From Psychrobacillus psychrodurans (GTDB lineage: Bacteria; Bacillota; Bacilli; Bacillales_A; Planococcaceae), in contig FOUN01000006.1 of the NCBI GenBank assembly GCA_900114885.1, positions 1 through 64,000 on the forward strand: 64,000 nt of DNA, read 5' to 3'. Both the position numbers and the translations under genes were made by a program. The notes beneath the pieces are model-generated. The model saw nothing but the letters and a program-made list of their open reading frames with translations, was not told the DNA's origin and did not search any database. Numbering within the stretch: the stretch's first letter is position 1; each line of letters begins with the position of its first letter. Below are positions 39,624-42,028 of the stretch, piece after piece.

Positions 39624-40925
39624 TTAAGAAGTTATTTTAATGACCTCTATAAAATGTAATTGATGCCCTTCTTTTTCGTAAATAGAGAAGTTGTATCCAT
39701 TAAACTCAATCTGATTATCCATTAATAGATCCATATCTTGTGTGTAATACCAACCTCCGATAGTATCAATATCAGGATTTTCTAACTCAATTCTTAAAAG
39801 TTTTGCTACATCATCTATCAATACCTTTGAATGGATAATATAATGGTCATCCTTTAGTTTACGAATGTCCGCAACCTCATCTTCGTCAAATTCATCACGA
39901 ATTTCTCCAACGATTTCTTCTAGAATATCTTCTACTGTTACAAGACCAGACGTACCTCCATATTCATCCAATAGAATTGCCATATGCGTACGTTCCTTTT
40001 GCATTTTCAATAACAAATTATTAATCGGAGTCGTATCAATCGTATTAATGACAGGGTTTGTAAATCTTTCTATCGTAAACGTTTCAGCAGTGACACGGTT
40101 GCTCATCCCCTGCGTTAAAAAATCTTTTATATTTATAAACCCGATAATATTATCTCGATCTCCTTCATAAACAGGATAACGCGTATATCGTTCTTCTGAA
40201 ATGAGTGTAAGCACATCATGGAATGTTGCATTTTTTTCAAATCCAATGATTTCAGTACGAGGCACCATAATTTCACGAGCAATACGATCGTCAAATTCAA
40301 ATACATTATTCACATACTTCAACTCATTTTGATTAATTTCACCACTTTTGTAACTTTCCGCTAGTAATAGGCGCAGTTCTTCTTCTGTATGAGACAATTC
40401 ATGTTCAGAAGCCGGCTTCATACCAAATAGACCTACTAAGACACGCGCAGAACCATTTAAGAACCAAATAAATGGATACAAAATTTTATAGAAAATCATT
40501 ATTGGTTTAGCAAAAACAAGAGTCACCGCTTCTGCCTTTTGAATCGCGACCGTTTTAGGTGCTAATTCACCCACCACCACGTGTAAAAATGTTGCAATGG
40601 CAAATGCGGCACCAATCGTAAAGTAGTGGATATTATCTGTACTAATACCAATACTTTCGAATAAAGGATGCAAAATAAATTCGAATGTCGATTCACCTAC
40701 CATACCAATACCAAGTGCAGTTACAGTAATCCCTAACTGACAAGCTGATAAGTATTCATCTAGATGTGTGGTTACATGTTTTGCTGCAAGTGAGCCTTTA
40801 CGACCTTCAGCCACTAGCTGATCAACTCTCGAATGTCGAACTTTTACAATGGCAAACTCTGTTGCGACGAAAAATCCAGTTAATGCTAGTAAAATAATAA
40901 ATATCGTTAAATTTAATACGGTCAA
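39624..40925 (-). CDS. CNNM/CorC (HlyC) family transporter with CBS pair
   Basis: A 433-residue membrane protein. The N-terminal CNNM domain has about four spans (LNLTIFIILLALTGFFVATE, VTALGIGMVGESTFEFIL). Two CBS domains follow (IMVPRTEIIGFEKNAT, HMAILLDEYGGTSGLVTVED) and a C-terminal CorC_HlyC domain ends it. Relatives such as Bacillus MpfA (YhdP) export magnesium, and others affect cobalt or sodium. The start is TTG at 40925, since two stops lie immediately upstream in frame. Its Shine-Dalgarno is 29 bases away with a hairpin between (see 40932-40961). It is downstream of a MerR gene, like yhdQ-yhdP of B. subtilis. Confidence 0.9.
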   Translation of the reverse strand: MTVLNLTIFIILLALTGFFVATEFAIVKVRHSRVDQLVAEGRKGSLAAKHVTTHLDEYLSACQLGITVTALGIGMVGESTFEFILHPLFESIGISTDNIHYFTIGAAFAIATFLHVVVGELAPKTVAIQKAEAVTLVFAKPIMIFYKILYPFIWFLNGSARVLVGLFGMKPASEHELSHTEEELRLLLAESYKSGEINQNELKYVNNVFEFDDRIAREIMVPRTEIIGFEKNATFHDVLTLISEERYTRYPVYEGDRDNIIGFINIKDFLTQGMSNRVTAETFTIERFTNPVINTIDTTPINNLLLKMQKERTHMAILLDEYGGTSGLVTVEDILEEIVGEIRDEFDEDEVADIRKLKDDHYIIHSKVLIDDVAKLLRIELENPDIDTIGGWYYTQDMDLLMDNQIEFNGYNFSIYEKEGHQLHFIEVIKITS

Positions 40926-40931
40926 TAAGTC

Positions 40932-40961
40932 GTCTTACTATAGTAGTAAGACTTCACCTCC
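40932..40961 (-). promoter_or_regulatory. Shine-Dalgarno separated from the TTG start by a 9-bp hairpin
   Basis: GGAGGTG (40955-40961) overlaps the MerR stop codon. Two bases on, GTCTTACTA / TAGTAAGAC (40944-40952 and 40932-40940) form a perfect stem with a 3-base loop. Six bases later comes the TTG. Folding brings the effective spacing from 29 to 8 bases. Confidence 0.7.
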
Positions 40962-41380
40962 TATGTGATAAGTAGAAGTAAAGATTGCATAAGAGCAACG
41001 CTTTCAGTTGAGATCTTTTGTTTGATATTGTGTTGTGTAGTTTCTTCTTCTGTATTAATTTGCTCAAGCAAATGAGAAACTTCTTTTTCCAAATACTGCA
41101 TCTGTAAGCGTAGCTCTTGAATATCTACTTCTTCTATTTGTTCCTTTTCAAACTGTTTTTTGATAGCTTCCAGAGACATACCTGAAGATTTTTTTTCTTC
41201 AATTATTCGTAATTTCTCAATCGTTTCTAAAGGATAGTAACGATAATTCGAAGCAGAACGTTCAGCTTCTAACAAACCGAGCGTCGTATAATAATCAATA
41301 GTACGTCTAGTAATACCTGTTTTCTCTGCTAATTCACCAATTTTCAGTTTTTCGATCCCAATTAGATCACTCCAAACCAT
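40961..41380 (-). CDS. MerR-family transcriptional regulator
   Basis: A 139-residue regulator. The MerR winged helix (KIGELAEKTGITRRTIDYYTTLG, then LLEAERSASNYRYYP) is followed by a coiled-coil dimer helix (EEVDIQELRLQMQYLEKEV) and a short tail without the metal-binding cysteines of CueR/MerR, so it probably senses something else. The frame opens at ATG 41380 only about six bases after the predicted transcription start, which would be nearly leaderless. GGAG lies inside the frame. It is operonic with the CorC gene. Confidence 0.85.
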   Translation of the reverse strand: MVWSDLIGIEKLKIGELAEKTGITRRTIDYYTTLGLLEAERSASNYRYYPLETIEKLRIIEEKKSSGMSLEAIKKQFEKEQIEEVDIQELRLQMQYLEKEVSHLLEQINTEEETTQHNIKQKISTESVALMQSLLLLIT

Positions 41381-41394
41381 AACGTTATAGTTTT

Positions 41395-41423
41395 AGTATA
41401 ATAATAGTTAAATATAATTGCAA
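41395..41423 (-). promoter_or_regulatory. promoter of the merR-corC operon
   Basis: TTGCAA (41418-41423), 17-base spacer, TATACT (41395-41400) on the minus strand, only 15 bases before the MerR ATG. The 10-bp palindrome ATAACGTTAT overlaps the start. Confidence 0.7.
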
Positions 41424-41489
41424 TTATTTAGTGCAACTATATTTAAAACATCAATAAATAGAGCTTTCTTTTAACATTTACCGACTTTT

Positions 41490-41514
41490 GTTTACGGCAG
41501 ACTCTAATGGGTAA
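41490..41514 (+). promoter_or_regulatory. sigma-B type promoter of the general stress gene
   Basis: GTTTAC (41490-41495), 13-base spacer, GGGTAA (41509-41514). It matches the Bacillus sigma-B consensus GTTTAA-N13/15-GGGTAT at ten of twelve bases, 40 bases before the stress protein start. Confidence 0.8.
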
Positions 41515-41554
41515 ATTAAACATAATACTAAATAACATATGGAGGTATAAACAA

Positions 41555-42028
41555 ATGGCACATAAAAAGTTTGTGGGTTCATTTCTAACAGAACAGGAAG
41601 TACTAGATAAAATCAACGAACTTAAACTAGAAGGTTATGTAGAAGAAGATATTTATGTCGTAACAAATCACAAGGAATCGCTTTCGATTGTCCGTGGACA
41701 AACAGGCGTGGAGCTGGAGTCTGCTGGGGGCAGCTGGTTAGATAAATTCAAGGCATTTTTAACCGGGGATGAGCCTGTACGAGCAGCTTTTAGTCAAATG
41801 GGATTTAGTGATGAGGATTCTGAACGCTATTACAGTGAATTGAAAAATGGAGGTATTCTCCTTTATGTGGATAAGAATTACGGCACCGTTTACGATGAAT
41901 ATGCCAAAACCCAATCAGACTCATCTTATGATGGAGATAATTTAGAAGGCACTGGTGAATCAATACGTGCGAAAGATGTAGAGAATCGATTAAATCAATA
42001 TCCACTAAGTGACCGCGGTGAACGTTAA
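41555..42028 (+). CDS. general stress protein 17M-like (YflT domain)
   Basis: A 157-residue soluble protein with a YflT/heat-induced stress domain: KFVGSFLTEQEVLDKINELK at the N-terminus, an EEDIYVVTN strand, then FKAFLTGDEPVRAAFSQMGF and a SERYYSELKNGGILLYVD strand. The C-terminal tail is hydrophilic. In B. subtilis these proteins belong to the sigma-B general stress regulon, and a matching promoter lies upstream. Start ATG 41555 has GGAGG nine bases before it. Molecular function is unknown. Confidence 0.87.
   Translation: MAHKKFVGSFLTEQEVLDKINELKLEGYVEEDIYVVTNHKESLSIVRGQTGVELESAGGSWLDKFKAFLTGDEPVRAAFSQMGFSDEDSERYYSELKNGGILLYVDKNYGTVYDEYAKTQSDSSYDGDNLEGTGESIRAKDVENRLNQYPLSDRGER

Follow-up and report, generated by a model that had tools for sequence, protein, structure and literature searches.

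A hairpin between the Shine-Dalgarno sequence and a UUG start codon as a probable split ribosome-binding site in a Mg2+-exporter gene family of Bacilli

A CNNM-family gene of Psychrobacillus psychrodurans begins with UUG, and between this codon and a strong Shine-Dalgarno (SD) sequence lies a stem-loop whose folding would reduce an over-long gap to a near-normal one. We consider it probable that this arrangement is a hairpin-spanned, or "split", ribosome-binding site that holds initiation at a limited rate in a Mg2+-exporter gene. The anatomy, its conservation, the covariation of the stem, the near-constant effective spacing and the association with UUG and with one gene family can all be read from the sequences compared. 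On that basis bridging of SD and UUG by the folded stem appears well supported, and we infer that the hairpin stays folded on the ribosome and tunes or limits exporter dose.

Start region of the CNNM gene

The window, that is the whole stretch analysed, comprises the first 64,000 nucleotides (nt) of contig FOUN01000006.1, and its relevant features are collected in Table 1. CNNM, CBS and CorC_HlyC domains all scored above the Pfam cut-offs in the window protein, with two CBS stretches, and the protein is probably a Mg2+ exporter of the MpfA/YhdP type, export activity being known for relatives only (PMC6711546, PMC8844918).

Table 1. Features of the start region and of the related clade
Feature	Position	Strand	Basis or accession
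CNNM + CBS + CorC_HlyC protein, 433 aa, MpfA/YhdP-like	39624..40925	-	PF01595, PF00571, PF03471
UUG start codon	40925..40923	-	read from sequence; kept in relatives
Hairpin, perfect 9-bp stem (40952-40944 with 40940-40932), loop 40943-40941	40932..40952	-	folding and covariation
In-frame stops TAG (40940-40938) and TAA (40937-40935), within the 3' arm of the stem	40935..40940	-	
Shine-Dalgarno GGAGGTG	40955..40961	-	9-nt match to SD consensus
MerR-family regulator, 139 aa, immediately upstream of the CNNM gene	40961..41380	-	
Start regions of the second paralogue clade: L018, L020, L021, L025, L027-L029, L111, L112, L115-L117, L119, L120, L123, L124, L128			

On the minus strand, the stop codon TAG of the MerR gene (40963-40961) shares position 40961 with GGAGGTG, which is followed by AA, the 5' arm GTCTTACTA, the 3-nt loop CTA and the 3' arm TAGTAAGAC, and GACTTA separates this arm from TTG. 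The distance from GGAGGTG to TTG is 29 nt in linear form and 8 nt without the 21-nt hairpin (10 nt if counted from GGAGG with the hairpin folded), and the minimum free energy of the spacer is -10.0 kcal/mol. The initial annotation, made from the sequence of the window, had described this geometry, with a perfect stem and 3-base loop filling the gap between a distant SD and TTG, and its coordinates and both distances were borne out.

UUG starts are prone to mis-calling, and translation could begin elsewhere, the hairpin being then an ordinary intergenic element. We regard this as very unlikely. The two in-frame stops by which TTG at 40925 had initially been fixed as the start were found inside the 3' arm itself; no ATG, GTG or second TTG occurs between them and TTG, which leaves UUG the sole candidate before the conserved N terminus, and the reading frame from TTG begins where protein homology of relatives begins. 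UUG and SD are, moreover, retained together across genera.

Taken alone, the 81-nt region of the window is unremarkable in stability (z = -1.42; 12 of 200 shuffles equally stable). Within positions 40955-41000, folding predicts that the 3' end of the MerR coding sequence pairs with the SD, whose probability of being unpaired is 0.03; in this operon translation of MerR may expose it. This predicted pairing is not needed by the bridge model and counts against it.

Occurrence and spacing of the hairpin in relatives

We assembled 170 start regions of the family from 30 loci, 80 named contigs and 60 short stretches, and regions were placed in the hairpin class when the interval from a strong SD to the start held a helix of 4 bp or more. 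With starts set by rule, or by hand for nine regions (L018, L023, L094, L119, L124, L135, L144, L154 and L158), a hairpin was found between SD and start in 155 of the 170, some of these assignments being poor, such as L153 with its 67-nt spacer. The remainder comprised four regions with normal spacing, 10 without a strong SD before the candidate start and one other. Because L001-L030 and L031-L110 overlap in genomes, distinct spacers were counted, of which there are 122 in the hairpin class.

Stem sequence, stem length and loop are highly variable within the family. The linear spacing from GGAGG to the start ranged from 18 to 67 nt over the 122 distinct spacers, whereas the spacing after removal of the stem-loop was 8-13 nt in 106 of them, and the 16 outside this range result partly from weak outer pairs folded into the stem. 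Narrow hairpin-removed spacing beside wide linear spacing, together with the joint retention of stem and start and the covariation described below, agrees with the proposal made at the outset that the start codon is selected by an RNA bridge. Loss of the stem with the start kept had been named as an observation that would speak against it; in the relatives, start and stem are retained together. The start codon is UUG in 114 of the distinct spacers, AUG in four and GUG in four, compared with UUG in 10 of 26 non-hairpin loci of a phylum sample (one further locus gave no start), a comparison that takes no account of relatedness and in which the "normal" starts were picked by rule.

Comparison with dinucleotide shuffles showed that at most 2 of 200 were as stable as the native spacer in 88 of 122 cases and at most 10 of 200 in 113. 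Among the 109 spacers with a hairpin-removed spacing of 6-14 nt, to which pair probabilities were applied, the mean pair probability at 37 °C was at least 0.8 in 102, and most stems are predicted to be folded at both 10 and 37 °C. Since the stems are predicted to be so stable at 37 °C, simple melting, one of the triggers first envisaged, is not an obvious one.

Covariation within the stem

A plain MAFFT alignment of a hand-chosen set of 31 orthologues (A1) has 98.1% of its cells paired and gave a covariation score of 0.282 versus 0.129 for shuffled alignments, none of 500 shuffles reaching it. Structures slid along A1 scored at most 0.092, and the slid controls over both MAFFT alignments at most 0.114. 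The other MAFFT alignment, again of a hand-chosen set (A4, 22 sequences), covers a second paralogue clade and gave 0.425 versus 0.198 (0 of 500 shuffles); both partners have changed in 10 of its 14 pairs. Neither of these alignments was fitted to structure. In a third alignment (A3), made by fitting 45 distinct sequences to the model, both partners have changed in 6 of 8 pairs, and its score was likewise attained by none of 500 shuffles. Compensatory changes, which the initial annotation had proposed to look for in relatives, are therefore present. When 5' and 3' arms were exchanged between sequences, 5.87 of 6 pairs formed within a sequence versus 3.45 of 6 between sequences, in a test (same 109 spacers) that leans towards pairing because its helices were found by folding. 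A chance hairpin is ruled out by the shuffle counts across relatives, by the covariation and by the strict genome scan described below.

Across relatives the stems contain G-U pairs and their loops change in length, which indicates that the element acts as RNA and not as a DNA dyad. This bears on an alternative in which the palindrome would serve purely at the DNA level, as the operator to which the adjacent MerR regulator binds. MerR proteins bind dyads, and a MerR-like ORF lies within 1 kb upstream in 73 of the 108 hairpin loci for which at least 700 nt of upstream sequence was available; nevertheless, G-U pairs and varying loops leave no dyad of fixed spacing, the hairpin keeps a fixed place between SD and start with near-constant hairpin-removed spacing, and the other 35 loci have no MerR-like ORF upstream. 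We therefore rejected the operator, whose chance of being correct we consider negligible. Given the same 35 loci, coupling to MerR cannot explain the hairpin in general either, and the suggestion that ribosomes finishing MerR control the gene did not hold as a general rule.

Specificity of the element

A strict search for the combination of SD, hairpin and start over 444 kb (380 kb of a sister genome plus the window) returned three matches among 84 strong SD sites. Two are copies of this gene; the third, L217, is a false positive in which the supposed stem includes an AUG at normal spacing. This search supersedes an earlier, looser genome control over 391 ORFs, which was too permissive (52 candidates, two of them without a normal SD). 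When 61 genomes were searched with a covariance model (R1), 20 strong matches were obtained in 17 genomes, all at starts of CNNM genes, with E values of 1.6e-9 or better and the next match at 0.0025, the search missing some divergent hairpins owing to the stricter filters of Infernal and the sequence bias of R1. Seven weaker matches were inspected and turned out to be plain SDs or terminator-like hairpins, and the idea of a motif common to other genes was dropped.

Searching Rfam with positions 40600-41600 of the window gave eight matches up to E = 10, all of which fell short of the gathering score and lay off the hairpin, and 20 relatives gave no match up to E = 1. No covariance model of a known cis-regulatory family in Rfam, the M-box included, thus matches the element. 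Literature searches, which covered open-licence papers and are for that reason weak as evidence of absence, brought up no description of it.

A transcription terminator was also considered and rejected for the family, as no U run follows the stem in the window and TTTT occurs in the 3' flank of only 2 of 122 spacers, although Us drawn into stem pairing, for which L126 and L305 are examples, escape this count. In L126, L305 and L022 the bridging hairpin precedes or merges with a U run just before the start, and in these three it could double as a terminator.

Distribution and paralogues

In a tree of 87 proteins (58 with hairpin and 29 normal), the trait requires 3 changes versus 24.6 in shuffles; for this tree the hairpin was scored by eye in L171-L200 and L221-L250, the short stretches L111-L170 were omitted, and several normal members have long branches. 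The hairpin is absent in 27 of 30 loci sampled from the phylum at large, the other three being of the same class. The third, distant CNNM gene of the genome from which the window comes (L201) has AGGAGG at normal spacing before TTG. That some family members manage without a hairpin, namely 15 of the 170 start regions and these 27 phylum loci, counts against the bridge model. The only clean loss seen is in a Macrococcus-type genome (L105), where UUG is retained and GGAGG lies 6 nt before it, a normal distance without any folding, as the bridge model would have it; its sister in the tree, L222, also of Macrococcus type, has the hairpin. This pair offers a natural deletion experiment.

All 10 Staphylococcus-type genomes examined have hairpin and UUG at the main copy. 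A shorter CNNM paralogue of Staphylococcus type (L295-L298) coexists with the hairpin-bearing main copy and has GGAGG fairly near UUG and no clear hairpin. Two genomes resembling the B. subtilis group carry hairpins at L281, L282, L293, L294, L305 and L306, the last of which starts with AUG. In a genome of the same genus as the window, mpfA is split over two overlapping frames (G011:C26:327589-328741) with its leader hairpin intact, which is either a young pseudogene or an assembly error.

In the second paralogue clade the hairpin is longer and contains an internal loop. Its middle apical pair flips from C-G to G-C, and the loop CUCAUUYG is mostly constant, which hints at a specific binder.

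Discussion

An over-long linear gap, a stem-loop lying wholly within it and a near-normal folded spacing together characterize a split ribosome-binding site, and all were found here; so was, as a second mark, selection on the structure, in the form of covariation that none of 500 shuffles equals in any alignment. In the mechanism that we propose, the 30S subunit would pair with the strong SD while the stem-loop remains folded and points away, and folding would place UUG, far off in linear form, at a normal effective distance. The long SD, the structured spacer and the weak start codon would then jointly cap the initiation rate. As the exporter dose presumably has to be right, capped initiation would set it.

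Bridging alone does not explain why a costly design is kept where a short spacer would serve, and two further roles were considered. The first is a switch responding to Mg2+ or ribosome state: high Mg2+ would make the spacer fold more stable on the 30S subunit and ease the use of UUG, raising exporter synthesis, and low Mg2+ or faulty ribosomes would lower it. UUG is better tolerated by the ribosome at high Mg2+, and a bridge would be expected to respond to the condition of the 30S subunit; the hairpin is tied to Mg2+-exporter genes and to UUG, in the proportions given above. In B. subtilis, mutational loss of mpfA raises cell Mg2+ and rescues the ribosome defect of cells without L34 (rpmH) (PMC8844918). 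On the other hand, most stems are predicted to be folded at both temperatures considered, and we hold such a switch to be possible but doubtful. Its fullest form is an aptamer-free riboswitch, kept in much of Bacilli, in which the folded spacer and the weak UUG would turn the 30S subunit into the Mg2+ sensor, exporter output would track free Mg2+, and the conserved loop of one clade would add a second reader; it seems to us slightly less likely still.

The second role is that of a landing or cleavage site for a helicase, a nuclease, or a structure-specific or ribosomal protein, by which translation or mRNA life would be set. The covarying stem and mostly constant loop of the second paralogue clade fit this, as do the presence of the hairpin at the main copy throughout the Staphylococcus-type genomes and the rise of S. 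aureus mpfA mRNA on loss of the DEAD-box helicase CshB. CshB, however, need not act on the hairpin, and since the stems vary widely in sequence, length and loop, no sequence-specific reader can be shared by the whole family. We therefore regard a landing site as unlikely, about on a par with the riboswitch.

For the split ribosome-binding site, the 122 distinct spacers provide a natural library for how the 30S subunit accepts folded mRNA, and the hairpin becomes a candidate means by which bacteria control Mg2+ export. Gene callers built around a short distance from SD to start may also misplace hairpin-bridged starts.

Comparison with known systems

The M-box riboswitch and the leaders of Salmonella mgtA and mgtCBR are large aptamers or leader ORFs that lie upstream of the SD and control importers. 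They resemble the present hairpin in being RNA elements before Mg2+ transporter genes, but the latter is short, sits within an exporter gene's ribosome-binding site and has no match in Rfam. In cmpA of B. subtilis, a conserved stem-loop between the ribosome-binding site and the early codons restrains dose and ties translation, in a MraW-dependent manner, to the condition of the 30S subunit (PMC13317604). Both are conserved structures at a Bacillus start region; the cmpA stem, as described there, occludes early codons and inhibits, whereas the stem here leaves SD and start outside.

The closest precedents are genes 38 and 25 of phage T4, in which a stem-loop between SD and start likewise shortens an over-long gap. 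According to the T4 account (PMC3014915), the gap between SD and AUG is cut from 22 to 5 nt in gene 38 and from 27 to 11 nt in gene 25, mutations that weaken the structure lower initiation, and the gene 25 structure is backed by DMS probing and reporters. Both tested genes demonstrate that bridging a split site can work. In S. aureus without mpfA, Mg2+ tolerance returns when AUG replaces the GUG start of mpfB or when a mutant initiator tRNA is present (PMC6711546), and initiation strength in the CNNM family can therefore set Mg2+ tolerance. Together with the mpfA result in B. subtilis, these precedents lead us to infer that the structured spacer and UUG set, and possibly regulate, the dose of the exporter.

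The T4 examples, in the account cited, are phage genes with AUG, and the gene 25 structure occurs only in close T-even phages; the present hairpin is chromosomal, belongs to one Mg2+-exporter family, is nearly always joined to UUG, occurs in many families of Bacilli and in some genomes is found at several paralogues. What has so far been a phage curiosity is here a standing, covarying trait of one chromosomal gene family that controls Mg2+. The hairpin start thus appears as a variant of the split ribosome-binding site that extends across Bacilli: the bridge itself is known from T4, and its covarying, UUG-linked form in a single Mg2+-exporter family, which turned up neither in Rfam nor in the searches of open-licence papers, appears to be new.
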